Shown here: positions 10,401 to 43,345 of the stretch, one piece after another
How the letters are laid out: the number at the start of each line of letters is the position of its first letter
How positions within the stretch are numbered: the first letter of the stretch is position 1
Origin: Saccoglossus kowalevskii
Lineage: Eukaryota; Hemichordata; Enteropneusta; Harrimaniidae
Assembly (NCBI RefSeq): GCF_000003605.2
Contig: NW_003147799.1
Coordinates: 1-49,540, forward strand
Reading direction: 5' to 3'
Length of the DNA: 49,540 nucleotides
Notes under the pieces: generated by a model
Database searches by the model: none
Seen by the model: only the letters and a program-made list of their open reading frames with translations
What the model was told of the DNA's origin: nothing
Program-made: the position numbers and the translations under genes

Positions 10401-11660
10401 AGGTGTCTATTTCAGTGATATGTCTGTATTAATATAATATGTTCATATATTTTTCAGTATATATATTCAGTAATATTTGTGAAACAAAAACTAATAATTA
10501 AATGTTTTAACAAAAGAAATCTGCAAAATGTCTTTTCTCCTGAACATTAGGTCAGTAGATTATACAAATAAGGAATGTGCAAACATCACAGCAAGACAGA
10601 TGGCCTATATAAGACAGTGTTCAAGGGGCGTTATTGCATTTACATTGTTGGTAACGTGAATTAGCCAACCAACTATACAAAATAATCTAGGTATAGTGTT
10701 ACTGTCATCAACATTACATGCTCATATTGCTGTCTTATACATAATACGATATTATTGGACTTATTATTGTACTGTTTTCATGTTGAATTCTCTCTGCTGC
10801 ACTGATGTACAGTTAATTGTCGCTAGATAACATCACAGACTTTGCAGTTTTGCTTCTCTATTGGGAATTCAAGGTAATTTCTTGTAATATGTATCTAGCT
10901 GTGTCCAGTTTTCCAATGACGTAACATTGGCTTCGAGACCACGAGAACGTTTTTTATTGTAAATATTGTTGCCTTTCCCACCTTCATCTCAAGAGATAAA
11001 CTTTTTTCATAATCCAATTTAAATTTGTTTTTAAATCAGTTGCTCTGATTATTTTCAAATCAAGTTCAGCTTACTTTCTGGTCCTTGCGTCGCCAATCGT
11101 TTCACGAGTGTGGCAAGATCCTGTGTGATCCTTAGCTACACGGTCAAGTATCGCATATTTGATAATCTCATTCTCTACAGTATACCCTTAATTTTATTGG
11201 CGTTGACACTTCGACATTAGGATAGGGCATTATTTCAGGGTAGTTTTATGATACTCTATTACAGACATCAATTACATGTGGCCTGGTTATCGGTATCAGG
11301 GATCGAAAACGCCAATAATATATTTGATGTGAAACGTACGAATGTTTTAATTTTCAAAAAGGAAAAAGAACGGATTCTTTAGTATCCTAGAGCTGTTACA
11401 AACATTTTTATATTCTCAGTTTTAAATTCAATTGGCTTACCTTGTGTTATGTTGTTAGGTTATTTCACATAACATCTTTAACTGTTTTACCAATTTTAGA
11501 AAAGAGGGTTCCTGATCCATCCCCACCCACAGACAAACACACCCACACCCACTACGGCTAATTGTTGGACACAAACAACACAACATTCTACGTATCTTAG
11601 CATAATATTGTCTAAGCATTTTGAGGCAGAATGCTACTCACGAGTTTTTTCGCTCTTCGT
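7450..11660. other. Long intergenic region, no gene seen
   Basis: More than 4 kb of AT-rich sequence with frequent stops in all frames. The short open frames (near 8330 and 8828) have no recognisable domain. I see no convincing RNA gene, tandem array or transposon ends here. A short duplication of ACTTACAATATT occurs near 9425-9450. Confidence 0.55.
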
Positions 11661-11664
11661 AGAT

Positions 11665-12330
11665 TAGTAGACTTGCTAAAAGGGTAAACGCTGCATTTTT
11701 TAGTACAAATGTTCTACTTGGCACACAAGTTCCTTGGGGCAATTGAAAATTTGTCATCCAAAGAAACACTCTGTATCTATGCAAATAAGGCCTAATTTGC
11801 ATAATTTATGCAAATTATTAAGAATTTTTTTAAATATTATTAAAAAATATTCATTCATGTCAAACAAATGTCTAGCTTGATATAAAATGTCTAAGGATCA
11901 AACAGAAAAATATCATACAAAATAAATCTTGTATTTATGCAAATAATCAGCTAATTTGCATAAATTCGGCTAATTAGTACATGAACATTATTAATTTTCA
12001 AGGTTTTTATGCACAGCATTTAGTGGTACAAACTTCCCACTTCCCACACATGTTCTTTGTATCAAAAGGAAAAGATTCATCCAAAGAGACACACTGTCTC
12101 TATGTAAATAATACCTAATTAGCATATTATGCATATTAGAACCTCAAAATACAAAATTCACTAATGGGAAAAAACAGACACAAAATACCGGGGGGTAGTG
12201 GTCTTACTTTGAATGATGTCCAATTAGGCAGATATCTGAACTAAATTTTACTCAGTATTTGTTTAAATAACCCCCAAATTGCATATAATGTACAAGATAT
12301 GCATAAATTATGCAAATTGCTATGTGAACG
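11665..12330 (+). repeat. Left terminal inverted repeat
   Basis: AT-rich arm dense in ATTTGCAT/ATGCAAAT octamers and their palindromic pairs. It is internally repetitive: the block TAGTACAAATG...CATCCAAAGAAACACTCTGTATCTATG (from 11700) recurs about 320 bp later (from 12020) as a diverged copy. So the arm is roughly two tandem subunits. It pairs with 15720-16491 in inverted orientation. Confidence 0.75.
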
Positions 12331-12472
12331 TAGGAATAAACAAGCAGCCTGCCGGCTGAGATACGAGGGACAATTAGTTGTGCATGTGTAATGATTTACA
12401 TCTCTGCAAAAAACAGCTCTGAACTAATTGTGGTTTCTGATTTACTGGTGTTTGAACTGAGTCAGGTGTGAA

Positions 12473-13177
12473 ATGGAGCCAGTTGAGTGTCGCGCAGTAA
12501 TCGTTTTTTTTTGTATTTGAAAGGACGCACACCAAAGGAGACTTTTGATGAAAGGAAACATATGGTGGTGATGCCCCATCATATGACCTTGTAAAACGCT
12601 GACATCGTAAATTCAAACATGGTCGGAAGTCTGTGGAAACAGCTCCCAGACCTGGTCGTCCTTCTTCAACCATTGATGAGGCATCTGTCCGGCAAGTTGA
12701 GGTAGCCATTTTGGAAGATCGACGCATTACTGTTCGCCAAATAGCCCAAGAGGTCAAGATTAGTACAGGGTCTGTGAAAACTATCATTCATGACCATTTG
12801 CATATGCACAAGGTGTCTGCCAGATAGATTCCCAGTTTGCTCACACCTTTGCACAAGCAAGAATGAGTCAAGTGCTAGAGGATGAATTTGCATATGTGCC
12901 AAGAAGATGAGTCAAAGATTTTCAAAAGACTGATTACACAGGATGAAACTTGGAACCATCACTATGATCTAGAGACCAAAGCCAAGTCAATGCTGTGGAA
13001 GCACTTGGACTCATCACCTACAAAGAAGGCAAGGGTGAAGTCCTCTGCTGGCAAGGTCATGCTCACAGTCTTCTGGGACCAGGACCAATAGTGATGACAG
13101 ATTTCCTGGCAAAGGGTACCACAATTACAGGAGCCTATTATGCTTCACTTTTGATGAAATTAAGAGAAGCTATCAAA
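12473..13177 (+). pseudogene. Mariner transposase relic, 3' truncated
   Basis: The frame begins MEPVECRAVI and, across several stops and frame changes, shows the N-terminal DNA-binding part: GRKSVETAPRPGRPSS at about 12621-12672, then the second helix-turn-helix RRITVRQIAQEVKISTGSV. It continues into the catalytic region with ITQDETW, which carries the first catalytic Asp, then KVMLTVFWDQDQ and TDFLAKGTTITGAYYASLL. It stops being mariner-like after LREAIK at about 13177, so the D-N-A-P-x-H segment and the last catalytic Asp are missing. Stops near 12520, 12540 and 12825 also break it. Full mariner transposases are about 345 aa; about 235 codons are recognisable here. It was nested into the larger inverted-repeat element, inside a short dispersed repeat also found at 43190-43345. 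Confidence 0.9.
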
Positions 13178-13559
13178 ATCAATCGGACTTGCTTTTCTTA
13201 AAAGAAGTCGACAATACCACTTTTACCAAAAAATACAAATATATTCACCGATATTAGAGAATTGAAGAAATCAACATGCAATGAACAAATCTAAGAGAGG
13301 TCTCAAGTACCCAAGGTACATGTACACCAAGTATCAAATCATTCAGGCTTTTAGTTTTTAAAAAGAAGTCGAAAAAGTAACATTGACACAGACGACGACT
13401 GACGGCGGAGCTAAAATAAGACTTTAAAGAGGGAACTATCTTTATTTCAATAAGTCTTCAAAGATATACTACTCTCAAACATTGATAAATAATTTCTAGA
13501 GGAATTAATATACAACTACATGAATATTGAAACTTATATACTTTATATTGTGGTCTCAG

Positions 13560-14930
13560 TAGCCTTGCTTTGTAGTAGTAGAGAATTTGTTAGCTGGCAA
13601 TGGTGATGGTGTGGACACTAACAATAGAATCGTGGGTACCCTCAGAGTCAATGCCATACAACACAACTACGAAATGATATTACCAGTCATATCCCTGATA
13701 TCAAGGCAATTCAAAAGCCATCTGGTAGCTGTGATTTGGTATTTGATGAGGACCTCAGTCAAGCGCTTCGGGAGATGGAGGACATGAGAACAGACATGAG
13801 AACATTGGCACAGGCAGATATGTTGGACAAAAGGCAGACATTCTGGTTCTTTCAACATAAACCCAGAAGCAGATTCTGTTGTGCCTTTGTTGAGATCCTT
13901 TTTGCATGTGTTGTTATGTTGTTAGATGGTCCTGTTGACACACCTCCTGCTTCTTCAGAGAAAATTGTATCGTCATTGGCTCAAATGATCATGCTTAACT
14001 CTGTAGGCAAAATGTCATCGAATCCACAGATTGTGCCACGCCATCCACGTGAACAGAAAACACATGAACCCATCATGCTAGCAATAAAGGTGCACATAGA
14101 AACAGGTAAGGATTACCCATTGAGAACATGAAGGTTTCATTCTACCTTTTCAAGCCACCAAAGAAGACTTCACAAAAGGAGGGGTTGAACATCTACAACT
14201 GCACCCTCTCAGTCTGTCTTGCGTGGGATGGGCATCTGCATCCTGCAGCAATTCTCAACAAATCAGGTACATACAGAGCAGAAGATGATCTTGAATGCTG
14301 CACAAATGGGTCAAAAGACCGTAAAACCACTCCCAGTGTCTTACACAACAATGGAAGACGTCTCTCTGCATAAGGATGAAATCTCGAATTTTCCAGTTCT
14401 GTGTACATCCCCTGAGATCTTTAGAGCATGTGCTTCAAGAAGGCTTTGGATGGCTACAACATGTAAATGATCACTTCCAACTGACAATGAAACACTGGAT
14501 AAAGTAACAAAGGTAAGAGGTATTCTTGGTCAGCATGGCAGTCTCTACCAGATTTCATCCTCCTGCTCCAATTACTGTCTTCTTCCAACCCAACAGTTGT
14601 CTTCCACAAATTTGTGAATCAGCTCTACAGTGTGAAGGACGAAGATATAATGACAGTGGATACTGCACGCTTGCACCTATTCTTCCTTTTGGGCCAGGAC
14701 TTTGATCTATTTATTAAACTAATTGCGATTAATTTCTGGCTCAAACTCAGATGGGTTGTTCAGTATACCAGGATATCAGATTATACTTTTCAGAGAAGTC
14801 ATGTGTGGGGAAATTCTCTGAAGAAGAATTTCCGTCAAAAACCTCCAACCAATTGGGGCTGGAACCACAATACCAATCATCTCGGGAAAGTTGACCCAGC
14901 AGCAAACCTCCATGTACATGTTGTGTGAAT
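13560..14930 (+). pseudogene. Decayed frame of an uncharacterised transposon-linked protein family
   Basis: Open pieces in different frames (13736-14131, 14219-14470, 14614-14928) follow one another on the plus strand, as expected of one broken gene. Visible stretches include PRHPREQKTHEPIMLAIKVH (about 14031-14090), RGMGICILQQFSTNQ (from 14222) and KPLPVSYTTMEDVSLHKDE (14318-14375). These resemble a large uncharacterised invertebrate family I recall with RHS-x-E-x-PLP-x-x-LGL-x-x-H, HGTGISL-x-Q and LP-x-SYT-x-V motifs. That resemblance is from memory and unverified. There are no catalytic motifs that I can assign. The piece lies between the inverted repeats and downstream of the mariner relic, so it may be cargo or the element's own gene. 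It could not encode a functional product as it stands. Confidence 0.45.
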
Positions 14931-15435
14931 AGACAGTCCTGTTCAACACTCTGCCGATGCAAAGGCGCCTTCACACACACAAAGAACTTACTTAAGTATA
15001 AGGCAGAAGCAAATGCGCCAAAATGGTCCTTAGTGAGACTAGAAACTCTGTGAAACAGACTTTCATGAGTGTTCCACCTAAGTTTTCCTATGACATTGTG
15101 ATACTCGCATTCCAATTTTGTTATAGAATAAGCAATAAATATGTATAATGATATCATGTATATTGATTGTGTATTTCAAACTTGAGGGCCTGTACCACTT
15201 CAAGAATCAAGAATAATTCTTTGCATTGTTTTCCGCTACAATCTAACTCGTGCTTATGGGAGAAATTAATCAACAGTCATGAAAACTTCCATAAATCATT
15301 GATGTGTACACACACGCACAAATACACATACAGGTCTTACCGTAGTTGTAATGCCACACATTGAATTAACTTTTAATATAGTCGCGACATGGACTCGATT
15401 AAAAAGCGTTCCTATATAGGGTTGCGTTTTAATTG

Positions 15436-15451
15436 GAGTTTAATTAAACTC
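15436..15451. repeat. Perfect 16-bp palindrome
   Basis: GAGTTTAATTAAACTC reads the same on both strands. The flanking AATT extends it imperfectly. It lies inside the inverted-repeat element, just before the longer hairpin. Confidence 0.6.
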
Positions 15452-15538
15452 AATTGCAATGTAATACAACGTAGAATTCCGTTTTAATTAAGTTTAAATA
15501 AATAATAGTTGGATATCTCGTGACTGAACATAGAGATG

Positions 15539-15651
15539 TTTACGAAGCTTAGGTTTAGTAACGGGGGAAGGTATGGTACAATTATATTAATGATATATTT
15601 GATATAAATTGAACCATGCCTTCCTTCTATATTAAACCTAAGCTTCGCAAA
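15539..15651. repeat. Hairpin: 44-bp inverted arms, 25-nt loop
   Basis: The left arm 15539-15582 and right arm 15608-15651 are reverse complements with about 36 of 44 positions matching. The core CGAAGCTTAGGTTTA pairs perfectly with TAAACCTAAGCTTCG. The mismatches cluster in one internal loop. It could be a small foldback element or the hairpin of a hairpin RNA. No promoter is evident. Confidence 0.7.
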
Positions 15652-15719
15652 CTTGATTTAAATTCGATTAAATATTAATATAAATTCTGAAACATTGTGA
15701 GTTCCCGTTGTGAGGCTCC

Positions 15720-16491
15720 ACTAGTTATCAGAACTAATTTGCATAATTTATGTTAATTAAAAGGTAGTTTGAAAGAAGAAATAGTGTTTGTATAGATTTA
15801 TTTGTCTTTTGCATTAAAGAGCCATTATTCACTCATTTCTGGATGAAATCAATATTGATTTTAATATTTTGAGATTATCCAATATGTATGGTTCTAATTT
15901 GCATAATTTATGCATTATTCATACCATTTATGAAGATTTATGAATAGTTTATTTTTGGTCAAACTTTATAACCACTTCATATCTGAAAAAGTTGTTCAAA
16001 ATAAATCAATTACAATACTTTTTGCTTATTGGTGAATTTGGTATAATTAATATGCATAATATGCTAATTAGGTGTTAAGTACATAGAGACAGGTGTTTCT
16101 TTGAATGAATATTTTTTCTTTTGATCCAAAGAACACGTTTGCCAAGAAGGACATTTTTACCAAAAGAACCTCGATAATTGACAATTTTCAATAAGGTGGT
16201 TATTTGCATAAATACTTGACTTATTTTGCATAATACTTTTCTACTTGCTCCATAGAAAGTTTATACTAAGATAGACATTTGTTTTGGATGAATATATATT
16301 TTTTAATATTATTTTGGAAATTTTCTAATTAATTTGCATAAAATATGCAAATTAGGCCTTATTGGCATAGATACAGAATGTCTCTTTGGATGAAAATGTG
16401 TCAATTGCCCCAAAGAACATCTGTGCCAAGTGAGACATTTGTACTAAAAAATGCAGCGATCATCCCTTTTTTGCCCTTAGCAAGTCTACTA
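15720..16491 (-). repeat. Right terminal inverted repeat
   Basis: Reverse complement of the left arm, diverged. It ends at 16491 with TTAGCAAGTCTACTA, matching TAGTAGACTTGCTAA at 11665. It carries repeated ATTTGCATAA(T)TTATGC motifs (near 15737, 15897 and 16331). Confidence 0.72.
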
Positions 16492-16874
16492 GCATACAGT
16501 GGTAGTTTAGCAGCGGTCTTCATAAACTACAAGGAATGCATCTCTATTTTATGAACCTACTAAAATATAAATACATATATCTGTTTCAGCATATGTTACC
16601 GAGAAATTTTGTGAGATAGTGCTATATTTGCTTGCCATATAAAATAGTAATATGCCCTAAAACAGACAAATCATATTTTATTTCATTTTCTTCTTTTTGT
16701 AACATCATTTTGTTACATGATATATGTGAAAATGAAGAAACTGACAATAGCTTGTGTGGCACACTACTCTGATTTGGCATATCACACAATACATTACATA
16801 AGTTTTATTCCTTGGGTGTAACTTTGCGAACGTATCCACAACACGATCAATATCGATTTCTCGACGAATATGGA
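16492..16874. other. Non-coding spacer
   Basis: AT-rich sequence between the inverted-repeat element and the first TRIM-cluster module. I see nothing assignable in it. Confidence 0.5.
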
Positions 16875-17323
16875 GTCAGGAAAGCCGGTTTGTTTATAGC
16901 AAACGGATACATTCGGTGAGTAGCAAACTTGTCGATTCATTTAATAGAAGAGTATGTTTATTTGAGTTCTCAAAGGAACTTCTGGTCAAGCAGTTTTATC
17001 GCCGAAATATTTGCCGTCCGAGGACATCACCTGGCTGAAATACGAACATTGGTGTTGGAAGTGGTTCGTGGCGGTTGGTTTGTTAGCAATACAATATCTC
17101 TTAAATTATACTTAATTATATTTAACATTATTGAGTCATATGGGATCATTAAATCCATACCTCGATAACAGTGATAAAAGTCGACCTAATTCCTAAGACA
17201 GCCATACCAACATTCAAACATACCAACATTGATTTACGTCATGGGTGCGGTGTGGGGTGACAATACAGTGTATAACTGTAAACACGCATTGTTAAACAAA
17301 TTTGATTGAATTAGAAATCTTGC
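16875..17323 (+). repeat. Partial upstream copy of the TRIM-cluster module
   Basis: About 450 bp, highly similar to 18325-18770 and 23750-24185. Shared landmarks are CAGGAAAGCCGGT, ATTCG|GTGAGTAG (a good splice donor, GT at 16916), GCCGTCCGAGGACATCACCTGG and a long AATATCTCTTAAATTATAC stretch. The translated frame is not conserved between the copies, because indels shift it, so the conservation is of DNA rather than a shared protein. It is the left-most of three tandem modules and lacks a TRIM gene. Confidence 0.85.
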
Positions 17324-19427: not shown

Positions 19428-20093
19428 GTAAGCGCAATTCTTCGTTATGAAGCTAAACTTAAAGTTTTTACATGTAGACGCATTGGGAATCTTGCCGTCT
19501 TTTACTAAGACGGACATATTAACATGTTGTTGTATTTCATGTCTGTCATTTAAACTCGCTTAGTTTGAAGTTAAGGAACACAATGTATATAAAAGTCGAC
19601 CCACTTTAAATTATGTGCTTGTAAGTCGTGTGATCGTAAACGTTTTATTGACTGTGTTGGCAATGGCAGTTTTTCTAAATTATACATAATTCATGTTCTT
19701 GATTAATAACTCAAGCTCTGAATAAACCTTCATAAGAGCAGTACCACGATAAGAGCTATAAACGCAAATATTTTCTAGGCAGTTACGTCATTTTTGAGTG
19801 TGTTAACTATGACTACACGGCGACAACCTTTGCTAGTTTTAAAGTGTGGTCAGTTTACAATCTACTTAAAACCAAAGTTGATTTACACGAGTAATTTTTA
19901 TAAATTGTGGGATTTACGATCCAATTATGAAGTGAATAGAACCGCATTGATTTAAAATCTAAATTTTATAGATATTAGTTGCAATATTTTCTTAAATTGA
20001 AAATACTAACTGAGATATTGAAATAATATTGTGATAAATAATTGGCTCGATAGTCATTCTAACTTATCCTTATGCACTTCTCATCCATAGGTG

Positions 20094-21281
20094 ATGGGTA
20101 CTGTGGTGTCACGTGCTGTAGGAAAGGTGAACCAGTATATAACACAACAATACATATCTAGTCAGTTCTCAGTGTCTGATAAATGGATTGAATGTCCGGC
20201 GTGCTGTCGTACATTCGATTTTCCGAAGATTCTGCCTTGCTATCACTCTGTTTGCCTCCGTTGTTTACATGTGAAAGAGGAAACAATAAACTGTCCGTTA
20301 TGCAAAATGTTACACAAAGTTCCTCCTGCTGGTTTGGAACTCTTGCCCGACAATCGGTTCCTGAATGATCTCATTGAACATTCATCGGCGAGAAAACTTA
20401 TGGAATCGTCACGAGAATGCGGGGTGTGCTCTGGCAACACAGCGCATAAATCGATCAAGTCACGTCAAGGTAAAAAACCAAACGTGTTTTGCACAAATTG
20501 TCGTAGAGCGCTTTGCAGTGACTGTGAAGACGTACATAAAAGTATACCGATAACCAGGACACATGTATTGATCTCTGTACAGGAGTATCGTACATCCATT
20601 CTCAAAGAATCGCCTCTCACGAAGTCCAGTTCTATTATGTGTCACCGCCATCCTAATAAAATTCTAAAGCTGTACTGTAGAGACTGTGATTATCCGATAT
20701 GTGATACCTGTGTCGATAAGGATCACACGGGGCCCAATCACACTCGTGAAAAGGTTGGTGACGCAAGGGCCAGAAAGGAAGCTGAAATTAATTTAAGAAT
20801 AAAAGGAGCAACTAATCTGAAAACAAGATTAGATGGGATTATGAAAGATTTGAATGAAGAAAGTGAAAGTCTTGAGATGAAGGTGGAAGAGGTAACAGCA
20901 CAAATAAACAGTCGCGCCAATTCTCTACAAGCAGAATGCAAACAACTTATAAAGGATATAAAAAAAGATGAATCTAGTCTTTTTCGGGAAATATCATTGA
21001 ATTTCGGTAAAAGAGGTGATGCTATTTCAAAGAGCAAAGCAGGATTGTGTGAAGGCATGGGAAAGCTAACAAAGTGCATCGATGCTGCAGAAATGTTGCA
21101 GCAGGATGGTCAAGGTGCTGGCTTCTTGTATATGGTTAAGCAAGTAATACAGGAATTTAAAGAGACAATTGGGAAAGATTATAGCGCAACTGCGATTAAG
21201 GATTTCAGATTTGTTCAAAATGACACGAATGTATCTCAAAGCATAACAGCAGACACACTAGGAAGACTTGTCATATATTAA
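20094..21281 (+). CDS. TRIM protein: RING, two B-boxes, coiled coil; 395 aa
   Basis: A probable E3 ubiquitin ligase of the tripartite-motif family, cytosolic. The ATG follows the acceptor TCCATAG (20084-20090) by three bases, and the whole protein is in one exon. The RING (C3HC4) uses C34, C37, C49, H51, C54, C57, C67 and C70. B-box 1 uses C109, C112, C133, C136, C141 and C144 plus His residues. B-box 2 uses C183, H186, C195, C198, C203, C206, H211 and H216. A charged heptad-rich coiled coil runs from about 225 to 345. The protein ends TADTLGRLVIY, at the point where the neighbouring TRIM-NHL paralogue (31200) splices to its NHL exon. So this one has no NHL, B30.2 or other C-terminal domain. 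Such a truncated architecture can still ubiquitinate or act as a regulator of full-length paralogues. AATAAA lies 50 bp after the stop. All zinc ligands are intact and there is no frame damage. Confidence 0.92.
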   Translation: MGTVVSRAVGKVNQYITQQYISSQFSVSDKWIECPACCRTFDFPKILPCYHSVCLRCLHVKEETINCPLCKMLHKVPPAGLELLPDNRFLNDLIEHSSARKLMESSRECGVCSGNTAHKSIKSRQGKKPNVFCTNCRRALCSDCEDVHKSIPITRTHVLISVQEYRTSILKESPLTKSSSIMCHRHPNKILKLYCRDCDYPICDTCVDKDHTGPNHTREKVGDARARKEAEINLRIKGATNLKTRLDGIMKDLNEESESLEMKVEEVTAQINSRANSLQAECKQLIKDIKKDESSLFREISLNFGKRGDAISKSKAGLCEGMGKLTKCIDAAEMLQQDGQGAGFLYMVKQVIQEFKETIGKDYSATAIKDFRFVQNDTNVSQSITADTLGRLVIY

Positions 21282-25409: not shown

Positions 25410-25862
25410 AAAACTGCCGTTTAACGGCTAAGGGCGAATTGACGGCAGATCCGTTACTACACGAAACGCATTTCAAAGTGGAGGTATATTAATAACGTTT
25501 GCGTATAACTGTGCAAACACAAATCAAACGGCCCTTTTCAAGGCCACTACATCCTTCAGAATGGAACCTACCGTTATTCACATACCAAATAATTTTGCCA
25601 GACTGGGGGGGGGGGGCTAAAATCGATTTATTGGTTCCATTTTATTTTTTTAAAAACCGAAACTGCAGTTTAGCGGCTTAGGGCGAATTTACGGCAGAAC
25701 CGTTACTACACGAAACGCATTCCAAAGTGGAGGTACATTAATAACGTTTGCGTATAACTGTGCAAACACAAATCAAACGGCCCTTTTCAAGGCCACTATA
25801 TCCTTCAGAATGGAACCTACCGTTATTCACATACCAAATAATTTTGCCAGATTAGGGGGGGG
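25410..25862 (+). repeat. Local tandem duplication, period about 250 bp
   Basis: Two adjacent copies share GGCTAAGGGCGAATT/GGCTTAGGGCGAATT, CGTTACTACACGAAACGCAT, CGGCCCTTTTCAAGGCCAC and a terminal poly-G run (about 25606-25616 and 25854-25863). It lies inside the insert that separates the 5' part of unit 2 from its TRIM promoter. Unit 1 has only the GGGGGCTATAATCGG end of it (about 19090). Confidence 0.85.
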
Positions 25863-26859
25863 GGCTATAATCGGATAAATGACTTGTTGTAAAATGCTTT
25901 ACATTTGGAGGGAGGGGGCTATACTCGAGCAGGGCTTTATACTTTGACAACTACGGTAATATTAAATACCAAATTAAAAAGTTGATCACACGCATTACAA
26001 ATCTCAATCACCAGCGACCTTAAAACCAATTGACATTTTATTTGACTAAACAATCAAACGTAATTCTCCACCGTTTACGCCGATTGGTTGACAGTGCTAA
26101 GGTTGCTATTCAACTATAATAATTATATACAAATAGTGTCGCTATAAACAAATCAGAATCGTTATTCCAGTTACCACGTCTTCGGCATCGCTCAAAATAA
26201 TAAGGTAAGTGCAATTCTTCGTTGTGAAGCTAAACTTGAAATCTGTTTTACATTCAAGTTTTTACATGTAGACGCTTCGGAAATCTTGCCGTCTTTTAGT
26301 AAGACGGACATGGTCAATTTTTGTTGCATTTCATTTCTGTCATTTAAACTCACTTAGTTTGAAGCTAAGAAACACAATGTATAAAAGTCGACCCACTTTA
26401 ATGATTGTGTGCTTGTAAGTCGTGTGATCGTAAACGTTTTATTGGCTGCGTTGGTACTGGATTTTTTTTCTGAATTATACATAATTTATGTTCTTTATTA
26501 ATGACTCAAGCTCTAAATAAACCTTCATAACAGCGTGAATATATGATTTGAAGATATTAGTTATGACATGCTGAATAATCACATACTGTAATCATTCTTT
26601 TGTTAGAACTATGTCATTTCAGAATATATTTCGCACTGCCACTTTGTTAATAATTTTGAAATGCACGTTGAGCCAAGTGGCCCTGTATGGAAATGGACGA
26701 TCATGCCATTGTTATATAATGAATTTTCTGAACTCAACGTCCGCCCACAATGCATACTGTGACAGCTTGTATGTAATATGGGGCTAGGTCAGCGATATCG
26801 CCAGGAAGACAAACGTCATCTAAACTAACTTATCCTGACGCACTTGTCATCCATTGGTG

Positions 26860-30486: not shown

Positions 30487-31189
30487 CGCTCTATCAAATG
30501 TGTTGAAAATATGTTGAAAAGTCACGTTTTTGTGATTCGGAAACACTCTAAGGCTTGTAATAAATATGAAATCCAACGATATTTGTTTCCAGGTTGACGT
30601 CAACAGACGCTCATGATTACCGCAAATATAGTGGTAATCACTGACGTCCAACTAAGAGAAACATCGTGGTACTGTATTTATTTTGTATTGTAGAGGCTCG
30701 AGATCATCCTTATTAAATAAAATAACAATATTCTAAGTTTGCATAAACACACGTTCAGATAATAACATGTTGTTTTACTTTATCATAGCAACGCGTTTAT
30801 AACAAATTATCCAGTTCCTGTGTTTCTTTATTTACTCTTCTGACGTTCTAGCCCCACACATAGGTATTCGATACAAAATATGTATAGTGGAATGTTCATG
30901 GCCAATAAATTAAATCAGGTCATACGAATCGCAGGATAAATACATTATTTCTCGATGACATTTGAAACTATTGAAATATAGGATTCACCACTACACCATA
31001 TCAAATTTATAATACTGAATTTTATCTTTGCATATTATTCAAGTAGTATAATAGCGTTGAAGTCATACAGCCACTAAATACTACAATGAGTTGGACATGC
31101 CAGTCTGTCGCAGTAGATAAAACATCAAAACTGGCATTGTAGATTGGGAATAAAATCAAACTGATCCCAAACCTATGTTTTATTTGCAG
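30487..31189. other. Upstream region/5' intron of TRIM-NHL gene
   Basis: AT-rich. It ends with the acceptor TTTGCAG (31183-31189), 10 bp before the ATG, the same layout as in the 20094 gene. The 5' exon that would splice here is not identified with confidence. Confidence 0.4.
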
Positions 31190-31199
31190 TTCTTTGAAT

Positions 31200-33599
31200 A
31201 TGGCGACAGAAATTGTGGCATTCCTGTTATGCTCAAAATGTGGCTATCAGTTCAGCATTCCAAAATGTCTACCCTGCTCTCATACATTCTGTGAAGGGTG
31301 TATAATCAACGATACGAGTACAACTAACGACAGTGTCACGTGCAGTACATGTTCCCGAAAGCATTGGCTACCACGTAGAGGTGTTGCGGATTTCCCCGAC
31401 AATATTCTTATCATGGATTTGATGGACTTCTATCACACACAAGCTGGACCTGAATTCATTTGTCGTAGTTGTAAAAACGAGAAATCGCAGCAATATTGTA
31501 AAACGTGTTTGTTGTTATTTTGTAGTAGCTGTGCTGACGTCCATGACAAAATACCAGTTACCAGTGGGCATACATCCGTTACATTACAAGAATTTCGTCA
31601 GAGTGAATATCTTAAATCACCTTTCGATAGAAAGATGCCATGTCCTAATCATTTCGGCAACGAAATCAAATTTTACTGCAAAGAGTGTGACATACCTATA
31701 TGTCAGGAATGTACTGAATCCGATCATTGTGGGTCGCAACACTCTCAAGATTCCATCAAAAAATTTGTCAGCGAAAAGAAAGCTGATCTCCAAAAAGCAT
31801 ACGTAAAGGGACGTGAACTTAACTTACAGTTACAGTCTATGGAATCGATTGTGGATACGGAAAAGAAAATCAACGACAGCCTATCAAAAACAATGAACGA
31901 AACAGTTGGGGAGTACGCTAGAGTTAACGTTAACCAGCTAGAACGCATAGTTGGAGACATAAATAAGGAAAAATCAGTTTTGTTGAAACAAGTGGTTGAT
32001 TCCCATAACAAGAAAAGAAACAAAATTGATAAGATGATTTCAAGTATTAAAACGGGGCAAAATAAGATTGAAAAGTTTATCGAAGGTGCACACAGCCTGA
32101 AAAAGCTAGAAAATGATATTGGCTTCTTGTGTTTAGTGAAAAATGAATTGTCTGAGGCAAACACAATTTTGAAGCAGGATTTCCACAGCGAAAAAGTTGG
32201 CATGTTGGAGTTTGTCGAAAATCGGGAACGTTTTCGATTTCCCGAGACGACGACCCTTGGTTACATTGCAGCATCGGAGCCCATAAGCAAACAAGGTAAT
32301 ACAGACTTTTAAAACATTCTAACCTAAGTTTATTTCAGACGAAAACTAATTGTATTATTTTAATTTCTTGCATTTCATTTCAAATGCCTTAATGAACCCC
32401 CAGCACGGCCGCCGGACCCTGTAAAACGTTTACATAATTTGACATACTTTAATACAAAAAAATAGTTTATTTGATCCGGTGGTATTAACATTTTCAAGTG
32501 CCCTTCCTAGTATATGTTGACCGTTATAGCTACGCTTGTGTTGAGCCAAGCTGTATTGCATCAAAGTCTCTTAATAACATTCACTGCTTCTAACATTATT
32601 ATTATAACTCTTTTTTATAGAAATGCATGTGCTCTGTTAAAACACATACTAATGGGCGTTGCACACTACAATATCATTACAATTTATCAATTTGTTTTAT
32701 AGTATCCAACCCAGGAAATATAATTTCCCCAACTCTCAGCATACTGCACAAATATGGAGTGAAAGGAACTACCGACAGAGAATTCGACGGCCCCGCTGGT
32801 ATCACAACCACTTCCAGAGATGACATCATTGTTGCTGACAGCAATAATAAACGACTACAAGTACTGAATCGGAATGGTAGATTTCTGCATCAACTTACAA
32901 CAGACACATTTCCAGGTTTTTCTCCAACCCATATGACAATGCTTTCAGATAATCAGCGACTCGCTGTAACTGACCGACTAAATAAGTGCGTGCATGTGTT
33001 TGATGTGTACAATCAAATACACACTAAAACATTTGGTACTCGTGAACTCATTGGACCACATGATATCACATGTAGCGCTACGACTGGTTGAGGTGTACAT
33101 AGTAGATGAAAAAGAGCCCAACGTTACGGTCGGCGATGGAGACTACCGAATAATAAAGTATGACAAAAATCTAAATTTTCAGCATCGTATGATCATTCCT
33201 CGTCTAGGAAATTGTAATTCAACATCCGTGTCCGTGTTATCTGACACGAGACTGGTGATACTCCAGTCAGACAGGGGAATGCTTACAGTGATGAATTCAG
33301 TTGATAACGCGAGCAAAACTAAAAGAACGTGTGATGATTCTGCTTACACCATTAACGCTAGTGTATGTGTAGACCCTTATGACAATATCATCATTGCAGG
33401 CTGGGGTCGTATTCAAATGTTCACACCAGAATTGAAATTGACATTCTCTATCAACGAAAGAGACCGATGCAGTGACATCCTCGGTATTAGCGTGTTCCGT
33501 TGTAACCCGTATCGCGTCGCCATTGCGGATGGCAACAATCACTGCATAAAAGTATACGGACTGATGGAATCCAAGGAAAATGCCAATGCAGTGAATTAA
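31200..33599 (+). CDS. TRIM-NHL protein, two exons, with one frameshift
   Basis: A probable E3 ubiquitin ligase or RNA/protein-binding regulator of the TRIM2/3/32/71 architecture. Exon 1 is 31200-32295 (365 codons plus 1 nt; donor CAAG|GTAATA). Exon 2 starts at 32703 after TTTTATAG in matching phase. The RING uses C11, C14, C26, H28, C31, C34, C48 and C51. B-box 1 uses C88, C91, C100, C103, C108, C111 and H124. B-box 2 uses C148, H151, C160, C163, C168, C171, H176 and H181. The coiled coil is about 190-300. Exon 2 encodes five to six NHL-type beta-propeller blades (for example FDGPAGITTTSRDDIIVADS and NRLQVL-like strands, ending VAIADGNNHCIKVYG). At about 33088 one extra T makes a TGA (33089-33091). 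Removing one base restores an uninterrupted frame to the TAA at 33597-33599. It is either a recent pseudogene, an allele, or an assembly error. Confidence 0.85.
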
Positions 33600-43189: not shown

Positions 43190-43345
43190 AACAAGCAGCC
43201 TATCGGCTGAGATAGCTCCGCTGTTATCAATTCACAGAAAATGTGAACAATATGTATAGTATCAAAGCAATCAGACTTGCGGTTTTCAACAAGAAGTCGA
43301 AAATATCACTTTTTACCAAACATTACAAATATTACTTGAACACAG
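43190..43345 (+). repeat. Dispersed repeat also flanking the mariner relic
   Basis: AACAAGCAGCCTATCGGCTG matches 12337-12356. ATCAAAGCAATCAGACTTGC with AAGAAGTCGAAAATATCAC matches 13172-13225. Here the two parts are separated by only about 50 bp. At the other locus about 820 bp of mariner sequence lies between them. So this is an empty-site relative of the mariner's host repeat. Confidence 0.7.

Follow-up and report, generated by a model that had tools for sequence, protein, structure and literature searches.

Long, internally repetitive ends occur in several described DNA transposons. In Galileo, the long arms contain internal repeats in which the THAP domain binds at several sites (PMC3688188); the Foldback element Tetris of Drosophila virilis makes target duplications of 8-10 bp and has a proposed Mutator origin (PMC4079207), AcademX elements duplicate 3 or 4 bp of target (PMC10045372), and Academ elements, with a mean curated length of 5565 bp, are abundant in bivalves and, among molluscs, nearly restricted to them (PMC10294476). 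Here we describe a transposon copy of 4827 bp at positions 11665-16491 (recorded without strand) of contig NW_003147799.1 of the hemichordate Saccoglossus kowalevskii; all positions refer to the whole stretch of 49,540 nucleotides that was analysed, hereafter the window. The copy belongs to a two-ended, multi-locus family characterized by TAG...CTA termini, long arms of ~160-bp units and a captured mariner remnant. It is a dead, internally deleted cut-and-paste element, broadly of a familiar kind, and with a probability of roughly 0.8 we regard it as a non-autonomous DNA transposon of an Academ-like family. No such element is named among the titles and opening parts of abstracts listed in related literature searches, and a search combining the octamer of its arms with transposon terms gave no papers.

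The extent of the element is set by its termini (5'-TAG...CTA-3'), by the end-to-end match of its arms, by near-identical termini in a second copy on contig C3809, and by homology of the flanks that runs up to the edges. A preliminary description of the locus had placed long matching inverted repeats here and had read the whole as a single large mobile element whose long inverted arms are built of sub-repeats, and both statements hold. Positions 11665-12174 align with 16491-16019 in inverted orientation at 74% identity over 521 columns (344 bits, E = 7e-96); aligned to the right arm, none of 500 dinucleotide-shuffled left arms scores above 34.6 bits. Counting the weaker inner units, the arms reach inwards to ~12320 on the left and ~15727 on the right and are thus ~650 bp long or more. 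From the unit alignment, pair scores and self-similarity peaks, the left arm (11665-12320, forward strand) consists of four units of ~160 bp (11665-11822, 11823-11985, 11986-12140 and 12141-12320), the fourth being weak, and the right arm (15720-16491, reverse strand) of up to five (16325-16491, 16170-16324, 16040-16169, 15880-16039 and 15720-15879), the inner two being weak. At the left edge, homology of the flank to four other loci (L058, L060, L061 and L062) ends at 11664; at the right edge, homology to one of them (L058) begins at 16492.

The search of the host genome (572 Mb in 4830 contigs) that had been proposed in the preliminary description finds further copies with the same ends. The outer left arm as query matches at least 15 places and the right arm at least 12; pooled, these matches define at least nine loci, the window included (C3825, C3809, C4796, C1953, C51, C446, C3323, C996 and C2727), i.e., at least eight besides the window. 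C3809 holds a second full-length copy of 5679 bp, which corresponds to the window copy in arms, mariner and interior apart from insertions and deletions, the main pieces being 81-96% identical, and whose flanks are unrelated to those of the window except for 27 bases (E = 0.005). At each of six further loci only one arm is seen, partly owing to stretches that read N, and C2727 holds rearranged fragments only. A pattern of the 18 terminal bases, with up to one mismatch allowed, occurs at 8 places, versus 1 for its reversed control. A tree was built from ten arms at eight loci (C2727 excluded, and with ~40 bases of flank unrelated to the arm in the C446 row). The six left arms group together, as do the four right arms, each group with 100/100 support, and end branches are short (0.046 and 0.035 changes per site for the window arms). 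Since left and right arms separate in this manner, they must have diverged before the family spread and are the two ends of one element. Neither of the outcomes that had been held against such an element, namely a lack of other copies or two unrelated insertions of one repeat, was found.

The target site was examined in five two-ended elements: the window copy, the C3809 copy and three relatives in which a transposase-type protein is encoded more fully, with broken frames, between inverted arms (L032 and, at a second place on the same contig C1912, L033; L034 on C3044). All begin with TAG (TAA in C3809) and end with CTA. Directly outside the ends, a 3-bp target duplication is present in three of the five (ATA/ATA in C3809 and in L033, TGA/TGA in L034). 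By hand computation from the base composition of the window, the chance is ~2% per element and ~8 in 100,000 for three of five, an optimistic figure, because the L033 and L034 ends were picked by TAG and further TAG pairs were available, among them one inside L034 that also has matching flanks. TA, 4-bp and longer target duplications were also considered, and were dropped after comparing the flanks of the elements and the L058 junctions.

The window copy lies within a dispersed repeat, one part of which forms its left flank (11299-11664, forward strand; at least 39 other matched places) and a further part its right flank (16492-16876, forward strand; 52 matched places, self included). Between L058 and the window, homology runs up to 11664 and begins again at 16492, and L060-L062 agree on the left edge. 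L058 carries both flanks and, between them, 535 bp missing from the window, part of which is common to L061 and L062. Because of these 535 bp and of the differing flanks of the window copy, this copy appears to have lost, or to have been made without, its target duplication, together with ~0.5 kb of the hosting repeat.

The first alternative is a MULE or Foldback-type element, with the long sub-repeated arms of the Mutator superfamily. The preliminary description had pointed to this likeness, and the tandem units of the arms (self-similarity peaks at 323 and 161 bp, unit scores) do resemble the ~220-bp units reported for Tetris. The likeness of form thus stands, but kinship does not: no duplication of 8-10 bp is seen in the 12 bp on either side of the window copy and the C3809 copy, the duplications seen are of 3 bp, and the Pfam hits, for the remnants as for the open reading frames (ORFs) of the relatives, include no MULE model. 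We therefore consider this origin improbable. Slighter still are the chances of a Tc1/mariner-type element with a TA duplication, whose arms would belong to the mariner inside. TA does stand at both edges of all five elements, and a mariner relic is present; however, the L058 junctions without the element read GAT|GTC and TAT|GCA, neither of them TA. These junctions argue that TA did not come from the target there, although L058, with its 535 bp between the flanks, is not an exact empty site. In addition, three elements carry their 3-bp repeats outside the TA, and the mariner is confined to the left half.

The arms themselves are built more finely than first supposed. When each arm of the window copy is compared with itself, the similarity has peaks at offsets of 323 and 161 bp on the left and of 286 and 163 bp on the right; the C3809 left arm has its peak at 296 bp, and in the C3809 right arm no peak rises above the shuffles. 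Because the left arm has peaks at 323 and 161 bp, the true unit is ~160 bp with alternate units closest, so that of the ~320-bp tandem subunits originally proposed the repetition remains and the size is that of a dimer. When the nine units, obtained by cutting each arm at its octamer blocks, are aligned, 14 of the 15 possible pairings between outer units (three per arm) score above all 200 shuffles (the exception being L3-R2), as do 7 of the 21 pairs involving L4, R4 or R5. Most units contain a ATTTGCAT...ATGCAAAT palindrome; the block at 11779-11817 (recorded without strand), for example, contains ATGCAAAT, ATTTGCAT and ATGCAAAT. That the arms are rich in these octamers, as had been noted, is confirmed by six exact occurrences in the left arm (shuffle mean 0.19) and five in 15727-16491 (shuffle mean 0.23), counts reached by none of 2000 shuffles in either case; the whole window contains 22, against 6.8 expected. 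Conservation among the nine units is highest in the palindromic block (mean 0.86 versus 0.68 elsewhere, matched by 0 of 159 rotations), a comparison that is favoured by cutting the units at the blocks. We view the blocks as putative transposase-binding sites. A scan of public collections with the palindromic-block pattern gave two hits (L001 and L002) on contigs titled bacterial, which were taken as chance, the L001 match covering only 20-36 bases at the block; in viral contigs the pattern had no hits.

The octamer ATTTGCAT, which we take to be the POU octamer, had also suggested binding by POU-type factors, and the arrays could be read as regulatory sites of the host. This is about as unlikely as the Tc1/mariner origin, and it gains no support beyond the strong enrichment of the octamer: across five left-arm copies, 62.5% of the octamer columns are invariant versus 74% of the remaining columns, and this slightly lower conservation argues against a present host function; moreover, L032, L033 and L034 contain no octamer or one. 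As for the idea that one dispersed repeat inserted twice, independently and in opposite orientations, the arms are only 74% identical to each other, as that account would have it, but it is refuted by C3809, where the whole arrangement is repeated, and has next to no probability given that the window left arm shares 89-93% identity with left arms at four other loci, versus 74% with its own right arm.

Inside the element, the nested mariner reported earlier is confirmed at 12380-13182 (forward strand, left edge approximate) by matches of pieces of it to Pfam Transposase_1 (E = 2e-6, above the cut-off) and HTH_32 (E = 4e-6, below it) and by other copies: the relic occupies the same place in C3809, C1953 and C51 and is partial in C4796 and C446. 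In the four copies compared (C446 left aside), it has diverged about as much as the arms (pairwise identities of 89-95% and 89-97%, respectively), which indicates that it was carried along with the family; it was present before the family spread. A short repeat occurs twice within the element (13171-13375), once at 43258-43332 of the window and several times near the C996 copy, and a small nested hairpin repeat with 46-bp arms lies at 15538-15652 (recorded without strand), with a matching hairpin region in the C3809 copy.

The mariner is not the only transposase present, contrary to the preliminary description, as there are matches to another, transposase-type protein at 13655-14261 and 14503-14682. 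An N-terminal remnant of this protein, which is the element's own, lies at 13628-14380 (forward strand) in a broken frame; besides a protein search of the same genome, it is identified by the match of 13655-14261 to the ORF L032:2315-3988 in two pieces (E = 4e-14) and of 14330-14379 to L033 DNA (E = 1e-4). The window ORF 13628-14131 has no match in viral contigs, phages or PDB. A C-terminal remnant is placed at 14503-14966 (forward strand) by a weak match to L032 and, for the remainder up to 14966, by two of the presumed Academ-type sequence pieces described below (E = 5e-7 and 4e-8). The catalytic and nuclease regions that would lie between the two remnants are missing from the window copy. 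Both full copies (window and C3809) lack this region and have a stop in the N-terminal reading frame in common, and the transposase gene was already gutted before they separated. C3809 keeps more of the N-terminus, and this piece is also found in C1953; the absence of it from the window is therefore a later loss.

The protein is best seen in L032, which shows the motifs DNIDHNPS, DQPLYA, HEQ, SHEEADTR, DTD and TGCDT...GKGK. By eye, SHEEADTR, DTD, TGCDT and GKGK in the relatives resemble XPG/FEN motifs; sequence and profile searches gave nothing significant and did not confirm an XPG assignment (in one PDB search the best match was an Rrp44 homologue, E = 0.27). The layout would be that of an Academ transposase with a putative XPG-type nuclease. 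The 3-bp duplications outside TAG...CTA fit the Academ superfamily, with 3-4 bp in AcademX; equating the protein with Academ is provisional. Presumed Academ-type sequence pieces match the interior of the window with 67.8, 40.4 and 37.4 bits (E = 7e-16, 5e-7 and 4e-8), the first covering 13841-14380; 200 shuffles of each piece reach at most 28.1 bits, and other matches in the window at most 24.3 bits, except for a second part of the third match, which lies inside the element and scores 26.6 bits. As the pieces were composed with the window translation already known, these matches are a lead and not an independent test. A presumed catalytic piece of this kind matched DUF6589 only, below the cut-off (E = 0.003). 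A literature search for Academ with XPG and transposase returned nothing. At the N-terminus of the L032 protein (L032:1607-2314), two C-x2-C...H-x3-C patterns are visible by eye; the region has no significant Pfam match, and the patterns are perhaps zinc fingers, as part of a candidate DNA-binding region. With the ORF of a relative as query, 70 stretches of the genome are matched, query and window included. On another contig (G000:C3205:2456-14665), fragments of this transposase-type protein recur every ~2970-3050 bp (starts at 2456, 5425, 8392, 11360 and 14405), an arrangement suggestive of a tandem array derived from part of a transposon.

Several points weigh against an Academ-like transposon. 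The window copy (GAT/GCA) and L032 (AAG/TCT) have no target duplication, and across left arms the octamer columns show no better conservation than the rest. Without the presumed Academ-type pieces the C-terminal remnant is weak (14503-14682 versus L032:5469-5990, E = 0.007). In the pieces scanned, searches of Pfam, NCBIfam and PDB recognise neither the transposase nor the nuclease part, and neither Pfam-A nor NCBIfam gives a match to the protein family. A search that covers the N-terminal remnant and part of the genome revealed no close autonomous partner, the best matches of this remnant beyond the window and C3809 being 29-35% identical. Finally, the name Academ is a provisional one.

As a probable Academ-like transposon, the element may have moved as follows. 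A complete relative would have supplied the transposase in trans, a partner that is implied because a dead, mariner-carrying derivative has spread. The protein would have attached to the palindromic blocks that recur along each arm, with several sites at either end as in Galileo; it would then have brought the ends together and cut at TAG/CTA, and insertion would have produced the 3-bp target duplication. The arms of the relatives bear on the role of the units. Both L034 arms and the right portion of L054 have offsets of 166-169 bp, and the L032 left arm shows them weakly; there are none in L033, in the L032 right arm or in the stretches of L055 and L056 examined; within these stretches L055 and L056 show no inverted arms, and a search of L056 for short inverted ends gave no convincing pair. 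Unit length (161 bp here) is therefore shared with some relatives in the absence of shared octamers, and other relatives show no such unit. A length of ~160-170 bp is close to nucleosome spacing. It is a speculative idea, and a rather doubtful one, that arms throughout the superfamily are built on a conserved ~160-170 bp unit whose sequence is free to change between families, the arms maybe being tuned such that consecutive binding sites of the transposase have the same orientation on phased nucleosomes. Since related arms share unit length and not octamers, the purpose of long sub-repeated transposon ends becomes testable.

Elsewhere in the window, a tandem array of 41-bp units with a higher-order period of 285 bp occupies 1-1467 and reaches the contig start, and a 249-bp unit is present in about two tandem copies (94% matches) at 25411-25873. 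Two ORFs (20091-21281 and 31143-32312) have B-box zinc fingers and weaker RING matches and are TRIM-like; after the second comes an ORF (32621-33091) that has NHL repeats. Scans of the window with Rfam (gathering threshold) and ARAGORN gave nothing.

Compared with known systems, the element resembles KolobokP, a bivalve-rich DNA transposon, in the length of the terminal repeats (~450 or 660 bp in KolobokP), which are however direct and not inverted there, and Kolobok duplicates TTAA (PMC9587614). Tetris is likewise non-autonomous with AT-rich arms and tandem units, but differs in its 8-10 bp duplications, as against 3 bp where seen here (PMC4079207). Galileo, of the P superfamily in Drosophila, also has long arms with internal repeats, and these hold multiple transposase-binding sites (PMC3688188); nothing here points to kinship, the Pfam hits of the window pieces and of the relatives' ORFs including neither a THAP nor a P-type transposase, with the window lacking the gene start and catalytic part. 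From Academ and AcademX the window copy differs in having neither the catalytic and nuclease regions nor a target duplication, and sub-repeated arms with octamer palindromes are not mentioned for Academ in the available portions of PMC10045372 and PMC10294476. On the other hand, it shares with them the large size of the element, and the 3-bp duplications of three of the five elements compare with the 3-4 bp published for AcademX (PMC10045372).

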